Positions 24,123-30,748 of a DNA stretch of 48,550 nucleotides are shown one piece after another. The notes beneath the pieces were generated by a model. That model was not told the DNA's origin, did no database searches, and saw nothing but the letters and a program-made list of their open reading frames with translations. The position numbers and the translations under genes are program-made. Positions within the stretch are counted from its first letter, which is position 1; each line of letters starts with the position of its first letter. The stretch comes from Bacteroidales bacterium (lineage in GTDB: Bacteria; Bacteroidota; Bacteroidia; Bacteroidales; UBA932): assembly GCA_017429765.1 (NCBI GenBank), contig JAFROJ010000003.1, forward strand, positions 1-48,550, read 5' to 3'.

Positions 24123-24794
24123 ATGAAACGAGTAATCCTGCTGGCTTTCGCCATGACGCTTTGCGCCACCGCCCTTCTCGCCCAAGATCTTCCCGACAAC
24201 GACTGGGCTAATTTCAACCGTTATTCAAAGGTCAACTCGGAAGTCACCGTCCGTCCCCTGGCTGTCCTGATGGGCGACTCCATCACCGACGGCTGGTACA
24301 GGGACGACCCTGATTTCTTCAAGGCGAACAATCTTCTCGGCCGCGGCATCAGCGGGCAGGTGACCTCCCACATGGTCGTCCGCTTCCGCAGGGATGTGGT
24401 TGACCACCATCCGAAATATGTCGTTATCCTCGCGGGGATCAACGACATAGCCCGCAACAACGGTTACATCTCCCTGGAGAACACCTTCGGCAACATCGTG
24501 TCCATGTGCGAGATAGCCAAGGCCAACAAGATCAAGCCGGTGCTCTGCACCCTCGTCCCCTCGGCCTACATCCGCTGGCGTCCCGCTCTGAAGGACACAA
24601 AGGAGCAGGTGGCCCGCCTGAACGCGATGATCAAGGAATACGCCAAGGCGAACCACTATAAAGTGGTCGATTACGCCACGGTTCTGGCTGACGAGAAGGG
24701 AGAGACCAGGACAGACCTGTCAGGAGACTCCGTCCATCCTAATCTCGCCGGTTACAAGCTCATGGAGGAGGCTCTCCTGAAGGTGATCAAGTAG
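24123..24794 (+). CDS. Secreted SGNH/GDSL hydrolase
   Basis: 223 aa with signal peptide MKRVILLAFAMTLCATALLA. All four SGNH blocks are visible: Ser in VLMGDSITDGW, Gly in GRGISGQVTSHMV, Asn in ILAGINDIARNNG, and the Asp/His pair in SGDSVHPNLAGY near the C-terminus. Such enzymes are esterases or lipases, in gut bacteria often acetyl-esterases on sugars. With the two glycosidases upstream, deacylation of glycan substituents is a reasonable role, though inferred. It converges with the ThrA-like gene, 14 bases apart. Confidence 0.92.
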   Translation: MKRVILLAFAMTLCATALLAQDLPDNDWANFNRYSKVNSEVTVRPLAVLMGDSITDGWYRDDPDFFKANNLLGRGISGQVTSHMVVRFRRDVVDHHPKYVVILAGINDIARNNGYISLENTFGNIVSMCEIAKANKIKPVLCTLVPSAYIRWRPALKDTKEQVARLNAMIKEYAKANHYKVVDYATVLADEKGETRTDLSGDSVHPNLAGYKLMEEALLKVIK

Positions 24795-24808: not shown

Positions 24809-26929
24809 CTAACGGATATTCGCTATGCTCATTATGTCGGCGAAGACGCCGGCGGCTGTGACGTCGGCTCCGGCGCCATAGCCTTGAATGAGCATGGGAT
24901 GCTTCTTGTAGCGCTCCGTGGTCAGGAGGATGATGTTGTTGGAGCCGTCCAGCACATAGAATGAATGCTGGGACGGGATCTCCCGCAATGACACGGAGCA
25001 TTTCCCGTTGTCGTTCACGGCGACGAGTCTCCATCTCTTGCCCTCCGCCTGGAGCCTCTTCCTGCCGGCCTCGAACTCCGCGTCAAGTCCGGGAAGTTTC
25101 TTCCAGAACTCTTCCAGCGAGCAATCGAAGAAGGACGGCGGGATGAACAGGTTGGCCTCGACATCATCCATGCCGATCTCGTACCCGGCCTCTCGGGAGA
25201 GGATAACCAACTTGCGGATAACGTCTGTGCCGGAGAGGTCCACCCTCGGGTCCGGCTCAGAGAATCCCTGCTCCTTCGCCATCCTCACGGTCTGGCTGAA
25301 CGGGATCTCCTCGGAGATGTTGTTGAATATGAAGTTGAGCGTGCCGCTCAGGACGGCCTCCATCTTGAGGATCCTGTCCCCGCTGTTGCGCAGGTCGTTG
25401 ATGGTCCCGATGATGGGAAGCCCCGCGCCGACATTGGTCTCGAACAGGTACTTGACCCCTCTCTGGCGGGATATGTCCTTGAGTCTCTTATAGTTGGCGA
25501 AGTCGGAGGAGGCGGCTATCTTATTGGCGGCCACCACGGATATGCCCCGGCTGAGGAAGCCTTCGTAGAGGGCGGCGATCTCCGAGCTGGCGGTGCAGTC
25601 CACGAACACGGAGTTGAACAGGTTCATCCCTATTACCTCGTCCCGAAGCCTGGCTGTGGTGAGGGGGACTCCTTTCTCCAGATCCTCCCGCCAGGTGGTC
25701 AGGTCCAGGGAGTCACGGTCGAACAGCCCCTTGACACTCCTCGCGATCCCGACGACGTTGATCTTGAGGTTGTGCTCCTCCATCAGTTTCTCCCTCTGGC
25801 TCCGGATCTGGTCGAGGAGGCGTCCGCCGACGGTCCCGATGCCGCAGACGAAAAGATTGAGCTCCTGGTACTGGGACAGGAAGAAGCTGTCGTGGATGAC
25901 ATTGAGCGCTTTGTGGAGCTGTCCCCGGTCCACTATGAAAGAGATGTTCGACTCTGAGGCGTCCTGGGCGAAAGCCTTGACGCTGATCCCGTCCCTGCCG
26001 AGGGTGGAGAAGAGCTTCCCGGCTGTTCCGGGGGTGTTTTTCATGTTGTCCCCGATCACGGAGACGGCCGCGAGGCCTTCCTGGATCCTGACAGGGGAGA
26101 GCGAGCCGTTGTCGATCTCTCTCGCGAAGGTCCCGTCAAGGACGGTCTTGGCCTTCGCCGCGTCTTTGCGGCTCACGCCGACGGATATTCCTGTCTCGGA
26201 GGCTGACTGGCAGACGAGGAAGGCGCTGATCCTCTCAAGCGCCAGGGCGGTGAATATCCTGCAGTTGACTCCCACGACTCCGGCCATGGAGGTTCCTGAC
26301 AGGGTCACCAGACAGACATCGTCGATCGAGGAGATTCCGCGGATGGCTCTGTCGCCGGCCCCGGCTCCCGATCCCAGGATGGTCGTGCCGTCTCCCGAAG
26401 GGTTGAGGAGGTTTCTCACCACGGTCGGGATCCCTTTGGCGTTGACGGGGAACAGGGCGGGGGAATAGATCAGTCCGGCCCCGAAGTTGCAAAGCTCCAT
26501 CGCCTCCCGGTAGCTCATCTCCTTGATCAGGTAAGCGGTTCTCACCGCCTCGGGATCGGCGGTCATGAAGCCCTCCCTGTCGGTCCAGATCTCAAGGCTG
26601 GCGGCGTCGTTGGAGGCCGCGATCAGGCTGGCCAGATAGTCGGCCGCCCCTTTCTCAAGGTCTGTGAGCTCTCCGGGGTCGAGGCCGTCGGGGATGATCC
26701 CCGGGACTATCACCCTTCTGGAATGGGGAGTGAGGATCTCCGGATGGCCCGCCAGGCAAGTCTGGGGGGAGGCTGAGACGGATCCGGGGATGGCGGACTG
26801 GACCGTCTTCACTTTATCCTGTGGGACGACGATGATGACATCTTCTTCCGTCGCTTCCACCACTGATTTGATTCTCAAGATGTTCCGGTCGTCTCCGAAG
26901 AGCCCGGCCCCGAATTTGAGGACTTTCAT
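24809..26929 (-). CDS. thrA: ThrA-like fusion: degenerate aspartokinase plus homoserine dehydrogenase
   Basis: 706 aa, about 100 shorter than normal bifunctional ThrA (around 810-820). The N-terminal aspartokinase half looks catalytically dead: the KFGGTS motif is KFGAGLF (residues 5-11), the SALGG(x)TD segment and the SxGERLS loop are gone because of a deletion around residues 36-75, and the RGGSD motif is LEKGAADY (91-98). The downstream part of the kinase fold (EIWTDREGFMTADP, SYREAMELCNFGA) is still recognisable. The two ACT units are kept (SGTSMAGVVGVNCRIFTALA; SVIGDNMKNTPGTAGKLFST). The homoserine dehydrogenase half from about residue 355 appears intact: NAD(P) motif CGIGTVGG, VVAANKIA, FETNVGAGLPIIGTI, LSGTLNFIFN, GFSEPDPRVDLSGTDVIRK. 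Expected activity: homoserine dehydrogenase, perhaps threonine-sensitive through the ACT domains. Aspartate kinase must then come from another gene. Confidence 0.92.
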   Translation of the reverse strand: MKVLKFGAGLFGDDRNILRIKSVVEATEEDVIIVVPQDKVKTVQSAIPGSVSASPQTCLAGHPEILTPHSRRVIVPGIIPDGLDPGELTDLEKGAADYLASLIAASNDAASLEIWTDREGFMTADPEAVRTAYLIKEMSYREAMELCNFGAGLIYSPALFPVNAKGIPTVVRNLLNPSGDGTTILGSGAGAGDRAIRGISSIDDVCLVTLSGTSMAGVVGVNCRIFTALALERISAFLVCQSASETGISVGVSRKDAAKAKTVLDGTFAREIDNGSLSPVRIQEGLAAVSVIGDNMKNTPGTAGKLFSTLGRDGISVKAFAQDASESNISFIVDRGQLHKALNVIHDSFFLSQYQELNLFVCGIGTVGGRLLDQIRSQREKLMEEHNLKINVVGIARSVKGLFDRDSLDLTTWREDLEKGVPLTTARLRDEVIGMNLFNSVFVDCTASSEIAALYEGFLSRGISVVAANKIAASSDFANYKRLKDISRQRGVKYLFETNVGAGLPIIGTINDLRNSGDRILKMEAVLSGTLNFIFNNISEEIPFSQTVRMAKEQGFSEPDPRVDLSGTDVIRKLVILSREAGYEIGMDDVEANLFIPPSFFDCSLEEFWKKLPGLDAEFEAGRKRLQAEGKRWRLVAVNDNGKCSVSLREIPSQHSFYVLDGSNNIILLTTERYKKHPMLIQGYGAGADVTAAGVFADIMSIANIR

Positions 26930-26980: not shown

Positions 26981-27190
26981 ATGAAGAAATTCCTTTTGAA
27001 ATTGCTGATGGGCGCCTCACTGACATCTTCAGTCTTCATTTTCCAGGCCTGCTACGGGACTCCGCCCACGGTCTATGACATACCGAGGAACCTTGTCGAA
27101 GTCAACCAGGTCGAGGTTGGGATCCCTCAGGATCCCGGGCCCGAGACCGAGACCGCCGGGGAAGAGGAGGACACTCCCGCCCTGGACTAA
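26981..27190 (+). CDS. Small lipoprotein
   Basis: 69 aa from ATG 26981 (the in-frame ATG at 26957 would only lengthen the signal). Signal MKKFLLKLLMGASLTSSVFI followed by FQACYGTPP; the Cys in FQAC is the likely lipid site. The mature part is short and acidic (ETETAGEEEDTPALD). The signal and 'ACYGTPP' start look like those of Bacteroidales lipoproteins linked to radical SAM proteins, which usually continue into a beta-sandwich; here nothing follows. It is therefore either a genuine short lipoprotein or a shortened member of that group. It overlaps the 3' end of the glycosyltransferase by 4 bases. Confidence 0.65.
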   Translation: MKKFLLKLLMGASLTSSVFIFQACYGTPPTVYDIPRNLVEVNQVEVGIPQDPGPETETAGEEEDTPALD

Positions 27191-28152
27191 TCCATCGTTT
27201 CCTTGATATTGTACTTGTTCCTCTCCTGGGAGTTGCGGGAGATCATCTCGCAGATGAACCCGGCAAGGAAGAGGATGACACCCATCATCACGGCGACGAG
27301 CGCCAGGTAGAACAGGGGCTGGTCGGTGACGGCCCTGTAGTAGGTGCCGTGGGACTGGTGGACCAGTTTCGCGACGATGATCCATATTGTCATCACGAAG
27401 CCCACGAGGAACATCAGCAGGCCGGAGAAACCGAAGAAGTGCATTGGTTTCTTCCCGAAAACGCTGAGGAACCACAGGGAGAGAAGGTCGAGGAACCCGT
27501 TGACAAACCTCTCCATCCCGAATTTGCTCTTCCCGAACTTCCTTTTCTGGTGATGGACGGGTTTCTCGGTGATCTTGTCGTAACCGGCGTTCTTGGCGAG
27601 ATAGGGAATGTATCTGTGCATCTCGCCGTAGACCTCGATGTCTTTCACGACCTCGTTCCTGTAGGCCTTGAGGCCGCAGTTCATGTCGTGGAGCTTGATG
27701 CCGGTGATCATCCTCGCGGTGGCGTTGTACAGTTTCGAGGGTAGGTTCTTGGTCACCTTGTTGTCCTGACGGTGCTGTTTCCATCCCGAGACCACGTCGT
27801 AGCCGTCCTCTACAATCATCTTGTACATCCCGGGGATCTCCTCGGGCGAGTCCTGGAGGTCGGCGTCCATGGTCACCACGACCCTACCCTCGGCCTTGGC
27901 GAAGCCGTGATAGAGGGCGGCGGACTTGCCGTAGTTGCGGCGGAAGGAGATTCCCTTGATCCTGTCATCGCCCTCGCCCAGGGCCTTGATCCTGGCCCAG
28001 GACCCGTCGGTGCTGCCGTCGTCGACGAATATGACCTCGTAATCGTACCCCGCGGCGTCGGTGACGCTCCTTATCCAAGCCAGCAGCTCGCCGAGGGACT
28101 CCTCCTCGTTGAATAGGGGGACTATGATGGACAGGTCTTTTTTATATTCCAT
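27187..28152 (-). CDS. Family 2 glycosyltransferase, membrane-anchored
   Basis: 321 aa. N-terminal GT-A domain: SIIVPLFNEEESLGELLAWI, then EVIFVDDGSTDGSW, RNYGKSAALYHGF, VVTMDADLQDSPEEIPGMY with the metal-binding DxD, and the acceptor region HDMNCGLKAYRNEVV. Two hydrophobic segments follow (about residues 235-265 and 280-305), so it sits in the inner membrane. This DPM1/ArnC-like layout is typical of enzymes that move a sugar from a nucleotide donor onto undecaprenyl phosphate; the sugar is unknown. The DUF4199 membrane protein lies 5 bases upstream, almost certainly in one operon. Confidence 0.92.
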   Translation of the reverse strand: MEYKKDLSIIVPLFNEEESLGELLAWIRSVTDAAGYDYEVIFVDDGSTDGSWARIKALGEGDDRIKGISFRRNYGKSAALYHGFAKAEGRVVVTMDADLQDSPEEIPGMYKMIVEDGYDVVSGWKQHRQDNKVTKNLPSKLYNATARMITGIKLHDMNCGLKAYRNEVVKDIEVYGEMHRYIPYLAKNAGYDKITEKPVHHQKRKFGKSKFGMERFVNGFLDLLSLWFLSVFGKKPMHFFGFSGLLMFLVGFVMTIWIIVAKLVHQSHGTYYRAVTDQPLFYLALVAVMMGVILFLAGFICEMISRNSQERNKYNIKETMD

Positions 28153-28157
28153 AGATC

Positions 28158-28715
28158 TTATTGATTGTCAACGGTTTCTTCCATTTCGGAGAAAGGGTCG
28201 TTCGGGGATATGTTCTTGGCGAAGACGATGGAGTAGACCCAACCCCACAGGAAACAGTAGATGAAACCTCCGATGGCCGTGTAATAAGGCATCTTGGGCA
28301 GCATCTTCTCGAGGGCGGCCTCGGAGTTGGAATCCAGCATGGAGGCGTAGGTGTCCTTGACCGTGCCCATGATCTCCTCGACGGATCCTGGGGTGAAGAC
28401 CATGAAATTGACCACGGTGTAGGCCGCGACGATGATCGACGAGAACAGGGCCAGTTTCATCCCGTAGTGTTGCAGCCTGGGGTAATCGATCTCATTGAAG
28501 GAGTCGTGGAAACGCTTCATCAGATACCTGAATGTCACGGCGCAGAGGACGAGTTTGCCGGCCCAGGCCAGAAAGTTCGCCACACCGCCGAAGAAGCCGG
28601 TGATCTTGCCGCACAGGCCCCCGATGAGTTCCGCCGCTATCGTGACGGCCGCCATGACGAGTCCGGCCAGCGCCGCGTTGTTCCATGACTCGCTCGAAGT
28701 GAATTCTTTCTTCAT
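28158..28715 (-). CDS. DUF4199 membrane protein
   Basis: 185 aa with four hydrophobic helices (about residues 13-33, 43-65, 88-110 and 145-168) and a conserved-looking segment FHDSFNEIDYPRLQHYGMKL between helices 2 and 3, as in the Bacteroidota DUF4199 family. Function unknown. It commonly sits beside a DPM1-like glycosyltransferase, as here, which suggests a shared role in envelope glycolipid or polysaccharide export. The minus-strand promoter box at 28738 faces thrS. Confidence 0.85.
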   Translation of the reverse strand: MKKEFTSSESWNNAALAGLVMAAVTIAAELIGGLCGKITGFFGGVANFLAWAGKLVLCAVTFRYLMKRFHDSFNEIDYPRLQHYGMKLALFSSIIVAAYTVVNFMVFTPGSVEEIMGTVKDTYASMLDSNSEAALEKMLPKMPYYTAIGGFIYCFLWGWVYSIVFAKNISPNDPFSEMEETVDNQ

Positions 28716-28737
28716 GTCCTTAACTGTATGGAATGTG

Positions 28738-28745
28738 CAAAAATA
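28738..28745 (-). promoter_or_regulatory. Probable -7 element of the DUF4199-glycosyltransferase operon
   Basis: Minus strand TATTTTTG, a match to TAnnTTTG, 22 bases before the DUF4199 start. Confidence 0.5.
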
Positions 28746-28758
28746 GCAAAATAATTCT

Positions 28759-28766
28759 TATCTTTG
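28759..28766 (+). promoter_or_regulatory. Probable -7 element of the thrS operon
   Basis: TATCTTTG, a full match to TAnnTTTG, 23 bases before the thrS ATG. The -33 region has only a weak TGTG at 28734-28737. It is back-to-back with the minus-strand box at 28738. Confidence 0.55.
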
Positions 28767-28789
28767 CCGACTGTCTAATAAATAGGATC

Positions 28790-30748
28790 ATGATCAACAT
28801 CACATTTCCTGACGGGAGCGTCAGGGCGTACGAGAAAGGAGTGACAGGTTATGAGATAGCCAGGAGCATCAGCCCCAGGCTGGCCGAGGAGGTCCTGGCG
28901 GTCGCTGTGAAGCCCGCCGGCGACACCACGATAGGCAAGGGACAGACTGTCGACCTTAACCGTCCCATCGTCGAGGACTCCTCGATCTTCCTCCTGAAGT
29001 GGGAGGATGACGAGGCGAAGAGGGTCTTCTGGCACTCTTCCTCCCATCTGATGGCCGAGGCTCTCGAGGAGCTTTATCCCGGTGTCAAGTTCGGGATCGG
29101 CCCCGCCATCGAGAACGGCTTCTACTACGACGTGGATCTCGGGGGACACCAGATCACCGACGCCGATTTCCCGAAGGTCGAGAAGAAGATGCTCGAGCTC
29201 GCGAGGGAGAAGCAGGATTTCACAAGGATCGATGTGTCCAAGGCCGAGGCCCTCAAGCATTTCACCGAGAAAGGCGACCAGTACAAGTGCGAGCTCATCA
29301 GCGAGCTTGAGGACGGCACCATCACATACTACACCAACGGACGTTTCACCGACCTCTGCCGCGGGCCTCATCTCCGCGACACAGGTGTCATCAAGGCTGT
29401 CAAGCTGACTGCCCTCGCCGGGGCCTATTGGCGCGGCGACGAGACCCGCGGCCAGCTGACCAGGATCTACGGCATCACCTTCCCCAAGAAATCGATGCTC
29501 GACGAGTACCTCGTGGTCCTCGAGGAGGCCAAGAAGAGGGACCACCGCAAGCTCGGGAAGGAGATGGAGCTGTTCACCTTCTCTTCCCGTGTCGGAATGG
29601 GTCTTCCTCTCTGGCTGCCAAGAGGTTCCGTGATGAGGTTCGAGCTCGAGAAGTTCCTTCGCGAGAAGCAGAGGGAATATGGCTACCTCCCTGTCGTGAC
29701 CCCTCACATCGGGAGCAAGGACCTCTATGTGACCTCCGGCCACTACGCCAAGTACGGCAAGGACTCCTTCCAGCCGATCCACACCCCTCAGGAGGGCGAA
29801 GAGTATATGCTTAAGCCCATGAACTGCCCTCACCACTGCGAGATATTCCGCTCCTCTCCCCGCTCCTACAGGGATCTTCCCCTGAGGATGGCCGAGTTCG
29901 GGACCGTCTACCGCTACGAGCAGAGCGGTGAGCTGCACGGCCTGACCAGGGTCCGCTCCTTCACCCAGGACGACGCCCACATGTTCGTCACCCCCGACCA
30001 GCTCAAGGGCGAGTTCGAGAAGGTCATCGAGCTGATTCTCTATGTCTTCAAGATATTCAAGTTCGACAAGTACACGGCCCAGGTCTCCCTCAGGGACCCG
30101 AACAACAAGACCAAGTACATCGGCTCGGACGAGAATTGGGAGAAGGCCGAGAACGCCATCATTGAGGCCGCCGACGAGATGGGTCTCAAGACTGTCGTCG
30201 AGTACGGCGAGGCAGCCTTCTACGGCCCCAAGCTCGACTTCATGGTCAAGGACGCCATCGGAAGGAAGTGGCAGCTCGGGACCATCCAGGTCGACTACAA
30301 CCTGCCCGAGAGGTTCCAGCTCGAGTACACCGCCGCCGACGGCAGCAAGAAGCGTCCGGTCATGATCCACAGGGCTCCTTTCGGCTCGATCGAGAGGTTC
30401 ACCGCCGTGCTCCTTGAACACACCGGGGGACACCTGCCGCTGTGGCTCAGCCCCGATCAGGTTAAAGTGCTGCCAATCAGCGAGAAATACTCGGATTTTG
30501 CGAAAAAAGTTTGCGATTTGCTGAATAATTCCGATATTCGCGCCTCTATAGATGACAGAAACGAGACTCTCGGCAAGAGGATTCGGGAGATTTCGTTGCT
30601 GCGCGTCCCTGTGCTGGCTATTGTCGGAGAGAAGGAGGTCGAGAGCGGCGCGGTTTCTGTCAGGTTGGAGGGCGCCGACGCCGGCGTCATGGGTTTGGAA
30701 GAGTTTGTGGCGTGGCTCAAGGCCAGGATGGCCGCTGAGCTCGCTTAA
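28790..30748 (+). CDS. thrS: Threonyl-tRNA synthetase
   Basis: Charges tRNA-Thr and edits Ser-tRNA-Thr. 652 aa from ATG 28790 ([20 protein letters not shown]), which begins the TGS domain; an upstream in-frame start at 28733 would precede the -7 box and is rejected. The editing (SAD) domain has the metal-ligand pattern [12 protein letters not shown] and [14 protein letters not shown]. The class II core has [30 protein letters not shown] and the motif 3 region [13 protein letters not shown], with the zinc-binding Cys/His residues present. The C-terminal anticodon-binding domain is complete. First gene of thrS-infC-rpmI-rplT-lepB. Confidence 0.98.

Follow-up and report, generated by a model that had tools for sequence, protein, structure and literature searches.

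The window, as we call the whole 48,550-nucleotide stretch of Bacteroidales DNA that was analysed, carries on its minus strand a gene for a protein of the ThrA type, a textbook allosteric bifunctional enzyme. The open reading frame begins with ATG and runs over 706 codons to its stop codon. The parts of the protein and the neighboring genes are listed in Table 1, in which G096 denotes a related genome that retains a long ThrA and a complete thrA-thrB-thrC locus.

Table 1. Features of the truncated thrA locus, in window coordinates
Feature	Position	Strand	Length
ThrA-type protein, shortened and near-certainly dead aspartokinase half plus intact homoserine dehydrogenase (HSD) half	24809..26929	-	706 aa
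Kinase N-lobe remnant, residues 1-71; KFGAGLF at 5-11, main deletions past about residue 36	26717..26929	-	
Kinase C-lobe, residues 72-192; KGAAD (93-97) for RGGSD, REG for VDG, FGAG for FGAK (Gly152)	26354..26716	-	
Tandem ACT region, residues 193-352; both conserved ACT-motif Gln retained	25874..26353	-	
Asp323 codon, aligned to E. coli ThrA Gly433 (feedback-resistance site)	25961..25963	-	
HSD half, residues 353-706; Lys470, Glu558, Asp564, Asp569 and Lys573 retained	24812..25873	-	
GDSL-like lipase gene, convergent, downstream, where G096 has thrB-thrC	24123..24794	+	
Family 2 glycosyltransferase gene, upstream; homologue between thrS and thrA in G096 too	27187..28152	-	
DUF4199 protein gene; 33% identical homologue between thrS and thrA in G096, gene order swapped	28158..28715	-	
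thrS (threonyl-tRNA synthetase), anchor of the conserved locus	28733..30748	+	

A preliminary description of this DNA had assigned the protein the architecture of ThrA with lost kinase motifs, and the pattern of Pfam matches and the alignment bear this out. Only positions 133 to 234 of the AA_kinase profile (234 positions) are matched, by residues 72 to 173 in the C-lobe (1.1e-15), and profile positions 1 to 132 are unmatched. The kinase remnant is followed by two ACT_9 stretches and then by full-length matches to NAD_binding_3 and Homoserine_dh. NCBIfam model NF006959 (bifunctional aspartate kinase/homoserine dehydrogenase I) scores the protein at 800.3 against a cut-off of 726, with a match that starts only at model position 126. 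Domain order, the tandem ACT region, the HSD motifs and a score above the cut-off are thus shared with ThrA of E. coli (NF006959), but most of the N-lobe is gone, the active-site Glu, Arg and Lys are lost, Asp stands at the Gly433 site, and no complete aspartokinase domain with the Lys, Glu, Arg and Lys active-site residues is present. Monofunctional HSDs (Hom, such as yeast HSD, 1ebf) align with residues 357 to 703 and have the same predicted activity; unlike these enzymes, which have no aspartokinase-derived region, the window protein carries a kinase C-lobe and two ACT domains before its HSD.

Compared with its 813-residue sister protein L007, the window protein is 107 residues shorter. L007 residues 55-67, 74-130 and 153-163, 81 in total, are absent from all 14 truncated proteins found in the survey below, in agreement with the deletion of the SAL-GG and GE-LSS segments noted previously. 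In aspartokinase structures, the active-site residues compared here bind ATP and aspartate. On alignment to E. coli ThrA, deletion has removed the Glu of GE-LS(S) from 14/14 truncated forms, and 113/113 long forms keep it; the long-form set includes E. coli ThrA itself and some repeats of one contig (L047 and L210 among them). None of the 14 truncated forms has the Arg of RGGSD (Lys in the window protein), which 113/113 long forms keep, and the Lys of FGAK is replaced in 13/14 (by Gly in the window protein) and kept in 112/113. The changes of KFGGTS to KFGAGLF and of RGGSD to KGAAD are as first described, and FGAK has also become FGAG. The statement that no kinase motif survives unaltered is a little too strong: all 14 truncated forms retain the RGGSD Asp and the WTD Thr, and 11 retain the WTD Asp. 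The least eroded member, L039 (714 aa), reads KFGGAAF and FGSK and keeps the Lys; the other 13 are referred to here as deep forms. Among columns with at least 97% conservation across the long forms, those kept by every deep form number 2/21 in the N-lobe, 30/43 in the C-lobe, 32/36 in the ACT region and 111/114 in the HSD. Because the active-site Glu and Arg are absent, the Lys is replaced and the N-lobe is mostly deleted, the kinase should be dead; on these sequence grounds the loss of activity proposed in the preliminary description is nearly certain.

The ACT domains are retained, as had been stated, but with a radical change that went unmentioned. E. coli ThrA Gly433 aligns with Asp323 of the window protein, at the second ACT motif, and Asp occupies this site in 14/14 truncated forms and in 0/113 long forms (Gly in 112, Cys in one). 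Four conserved ACT columns are changed in the deep forms, two of them mixed Ile/Val, one from Ala to Ser (residue 290) and one from Gly to Asp (residue 323). Both ACT Gln residues are kept in all 14 truncated forms. ThrA carrying Gly433Arg is described as insensitive to threonine (PMC7531971) and as a feedback-resistant variant in wide use, and saturation of residue 433 is described as giving strong shifts in threonine output, with Phe the best at 48-fold (PMC6628500). The window protein is therefore changed at the same aligned residue as threonine-insensitive ThrA mutants (Gly433Arg and others). In contrast to the Gly433Arg and Phe mutants, the change here is natural, is to Asp, is fixed in a clade and is joined with loss of the kinase, and insensitivity would follow only by analogy. 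This likeness points to relief of threonine inhibition by Asp323, and the window protein probably escapes classical threonine inhibition. In ThrA, threonine inhibits both activities, and the change at the Gly433 site is the one feature seen here that bears on this property.

The HSD half is well preserved, as the full-length domain matches and the conserved columns indicate in agreement with the earlier claim. Residues 470, 558, 564, 569 and 573 align with Lys117, Glu208, Asp214, Asp219 and Lys223 of yeast HSD, of which Lys117, Glu208, Asp219 and Lys223 are catalytic, and they are invariant in 63 sequences. Only one HSD-domain protein was found in the window genome, and its HSD half is presumably active.

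The survey covered the window's own genome, its family (199 genomes), its genus (400 genomes) and chosen genomes, and a wider search for related loci returned the best 80, of which four are truncated. A match to the window protein was found in 387 of the 400 genus genomes. Among the matches listed, at least 14 of the 400 are truncated, aligning from residue 1 or 2 to 706, so that the deletion which the preliminary description had proposed to look for in related genomes is shared by at least 14 genomes of this genus. These 14 are open frames of 705-766 aa with 73-100% identity to the window protein (73-89% for the 13 relatives). Full-span matches of the long forms, among those listed, have at most 70% identity and align from about residue 73. 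A fifteenth genome, G498, in which thrA is cut by the contig end, was left out of the 14. L039 carries the name Candidatus Cryptobacteroides faecihippi and belongs to the same genus as the window; judged by equal contig numbers and coordinates, its genome is both G202 and G326, the latter of which lies in the window's genus. The 14 truncated forms compose one clade (support 1.0; 98 on HSD alone; 100 on ACT+HSD) with L039 as its most distant member. G096 was considered as the closest relative of this clade, with FastTree supports of 0.859 and 0.926, but IQ-TREE gave only 51 on ACT+HSD and the grouping was not recovered on HSD alone, so the placement is uncertain.

The surroundings of the gene differ from those of long forms. 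The gene order in G096 is infC, thrS, glycosyltransferase, DUF4199 gene, thrA, thrB, thrC, and in the truncated loci thrS, DUF4199 gene, glycosyltransferase, thrA. The glycosyltransferase gene is upstream of truncated thrA in 14/14 loci, and thrS with the DUF4199 gene in 11/14, the available sequence ending first in the other three. Downstream, thrB or thrC was found in 0/14 loci and the GDSL lipase gene in 13/14, with a small ORF between in seven; the contig of the L039 locus (L176) ends in 5S rRNA. Since other long forms (L042, L044, L048, L051) also have thrA-thrB-thrC, loss of thrBC here is likelier than gain in G096. At the Rfam gathering threshold, the window and 19 related loci yielded only tRNA and rRNA and no RNA control element.

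An operon thrABC is typical of ThrA, but in the window genome thrB and thrC were found neither at the locus nor elsewhere. Protein searches of ten genomes found neither threonine synthase nor ThrB in G000, G129, G200 and G201, only a trivial ThrB match (3.2e-4) and no threonine synthase in G199, and both threonine synthase and homoserine kinase in G202 and four long-form genomes. The cut-off of the ThrC model was exceeded in 15/20 genomes, the five without it being G000, G129, G199, G200 and G201. In a set of 50 genomes it was exceeded in 0/13 with deep forms (assemblies 71-98% complete), 1/1 with the intermediate form (G326), 0/1 with the partial form (G498), 0/2 of a second truncated clade and 29/33 others. 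Those 33 were hand-picked, mostly as nearest to the window protein, and are not a random sample; one of them, G508, has thrA in two pieces with an apparent frameshift. A Fisher test of 0/13 against 29/33 gives 2.3e-8, a value to be read with the non-independence of the sample in mind, since the 13 deep genomes share one ancestor, do not represent 13 independent events, and are compared with chosen genomes. ThrB2, a second kind of homoserine kinase, is described as occurring in many Bacteroidetes (PMC9026213). The ThrB search covered the homologous kinase, ThrB2 being non-homologous, and it is the absence of ThrC that carries the argument. A weak TIGR00260 match in the window genome was considered as a hidden threonine synthase and rejected, as it is cysteate synthase (419.8 against 324.9), a typing that covers the window genome only; the corresponding gene is L160 5489-6772 (TIGR03844). 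Similar weak matches occur in the other deep genomes. Cysteate synthase may serve sulfonolipid synthesis.

As neither threonine synthase nor homoserine kinase was found in the window genome, threonine is probably not made there from homoserine, and the truncated lineage appears to have lost threonine synthesis. The suggestion that a dead kinase separates the first and third steps of threonine and methionine synthesis is consequently unsupported in that form. The link between kinase truncation and threonine loss is not absolute, because the L039 genome combines the truncation and the Asp with thrB and thrC. Its thrBC genes lie away from the thrA locus and are divergent (48-53% identity to those of L042), and re-acquisition would be no more than a guess. 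The pair is thrB-thrC at L163 5197-7436, for which acquisition by transfer from outside is possible. Conversely, four genomes with no ThrC match (G380, G570, G406 and G360) have full-length ThrA with intact motifs, and loss of threonine synthase therefore does not force loss of the kinase at once.

Aspartate entry into the pathway is probably covered by another gene. Four proteins of the amino acid kinase family were found in the window's own genome, namely LysC, the window protein, UMP kinase and an ArgB-like protein (assigned by its neighbors). The separate LysC that the preliminary description advised looking for is thus present, its gene being followed by a dapB-like gene (judged by eye) and dapA, and LysC was found in 6/6 truncated genomes searched. 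It reads LGFEGSD and not LGRGGSD in 7/7 cases, namely its own genome (L001 1504-2862) and L118-L123, which represent six truncated genomes and G096. The M. jannaschii aspartokinase, which has a solved structure, has the Arg of RGGSD, unlike the LysC of this clade. We infer that this LysC is active; were it inactive, the pathway would be without any known kinase.

On the methionine side, homoserine O-succinyltransferase (MetA) was found in 0/20 genomes, and the MetX model was matched in 20/20, in G204 only by a fragment. None of the 20 genomes exceeded the curated MetX cut-off of 500, but neither did any of 14 control genomes. Two MetX copies are present in the five deep genomes examined, and likewise in G213. 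The first belongs to the G096/G202 branch and adjoins MetY in G129 and G000. The second, MetX-like copy (L172 2297-4539; L171; L180; L183; L186) makes up a clade of its own with 52-53% identity to the first copy of G129, and in G129 it lies immediately after the gene of a sodium:dicarboxylate symporter.

Outside this clade, L199 and L200 (genomes G384 and G364) encode proteins of 665 and 666 aa from which even more of the kinase is lost, the Pfam kinase match beginning at profile position 145 or 152. Their locus has metY divergent upstream and asd downstream. They group with long forms L047/L210 (100 on ACT+HSD) and, on HSD alone, fall within a wider group of eight (92). A single origin of both truncated clades was rejected (AU p 0.015 on ACT+HSD, 0.043 on HSD alone), and kinase loss probably arose twice. 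Both L199 and L200 keep Gly at the 433 site, and so the change there is no general companion of kinase loss. ThrC was not found in either genome, weaker evidence than in the first clade because these assemblies are 66% and 83% complete.

We consider it likely that, in a lineage no longer making threonine, ThrA lost its aspartokinase and now serves the methionine branch as an HSD that carries a vestigial kinase and has probably shed classical threonine inhibition. According to this explanation, an ancestral thrA-thrB-thrC locus would have lost thrB and thrC, after which homoserine would be needed mainly for methionine, through MetX and then MetY. The separate LysC could supply aspartyl phosphate, the kinase of ThrA would no longer be needed, and most of its N-lobe and its active site would be lost. 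The C-lobe and tandem ACT region would be retained as components of the folded, oligomeric core that supports the HSD. The change of Gly to Asp in the second ACT motif would most likely have abolished or modified inhibition by threonine; had this change not occurred, imported threonine would presumably shut off methionine synthesis. The order of events, the loss of threonine control and the structural role of the remnant are all deduced from the comparisons above.

Other readings of the truncated gene were weighed. That the truncation is an assembly or sequencing artefact is hardly conceivable: metagenome assemblies are the source of the named relatives L036-L039 and probably of the others, but an identical deletion recurs in 14 genomes whose proteins, the 13 relatives being 73-89% identical to that of the window, fall in a single clade (support 1.0), and replication in other genomes rules out an error in one assembly. 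Nor does the kinase half behave as near-neutral debris merely awaiting deletion, an account we find quite improbable. Nei-Gojobori median dN/dS among the 13 deep forms is 0.224 for the N-lobe remnant, 0.066 for the C-lobe, 0.054 for the ACT region and 0.055 for the HSD, compared with 0.265, 0.079, 0.126 and 0.174 in six long forms. Only pairs with dS of 0.2-1.8 were used (50, 60, 55 and 69 of 78 for the four parts of the deep forms), and with dS high the values are rough. The value of the N-lobe remnant would suit such decay, as would the faster evolution of the C-lobe relative to the HSD: ratios of protein distance are 1.11-2.05 for truncated pairs and 0.64-1.13 among the close long forms L040, L041, L042 and L044, although they reach 1.64 among more distant long-form pairs. 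Against it stand the low C-lobe dN/dS, the lack of internal stops in 14/14 forms, deletions common to the whole clade, and the similar C-lobe part kept by the second truncated lineage. The C-lobe may have lost a little of its constraint but is still clearly constrained, and the truncated clade is, by these estimates, under purifying selection, in line with the earlier view that the intact frame of 706 codons is selected.

The same constraint on the C-lobe and ACT region could be taken to mean that the kinase remnant, together with the ACT domains, continues to respond to threonine (or lysine) and to regulate the HSD as a pseudokinase would, in line with the regulatory role proposed in the preliminary description. 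The high proportion of conserved ACT columns kept, both Gln residues included, agrees with this, and the second truncated clade retains Gly at the 433 site. We nonetheless judge it unlikely, as the constraint is equally explicable by folding and oligomerization, ThrC was not found in 13 of the 14 genomes, and retained threonine feedback is argued against because the most radical fixed ACT change falls on a residue of threonine insensitivity in E. coli. There is a slim chance that the pseudokinase-ACT half has been retuned to another effector (such as methionine, S-adenosylmethionine or a homoserine ester) or has become a partner subunit of LysC. The expected marks of either change are the Asp that has become fixed in the ACT pocket and the strength of the constraint on a domain that has no catalytic use; partnership with LysC would make a split pair of aspartokinase and homoserine dehydrogenase under joint control. 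Our preferred reading remains an HSD of the methionine branch that retains a vestigial kinase.

ThrA is a known family, and what is new is most likely a kinase-dead form retained as an HSD, in all likelihood for methionine. No kinase-dead ThrA was found in the literature titles or abstract openings searched. The kinase half was lost apparently twice, in gut-bacterial lineages mostly without a detected threonine synthase. These proteins are an experiment of nature from which to learn how the dehydrogenase depends on the kinase and ACT parts, and what becomes of feedback sites once their end product is no longer made. They are also an annotation trap: 6/6 truncated forms tested (the window protein and five others) exceed the cut-off of NF006959, the model that names a bifunctional aspartate kinase, and metabolic models would for this reason credit an absent kinase.

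Mirror-image proteins of about 700-745 aa occur in sister genomes, at L165 3020-5188, L166 2739-4853 and L167 3112-5214, all on the minus strand. They have a complete kinase domain and no ACT match over the cut-off, and the conserved NK of the HSD half reads NR in 3/3. They may combine a live kinase with a dead HSD. The genes of L166 and L167 adjoin others that resemble lysine genes.
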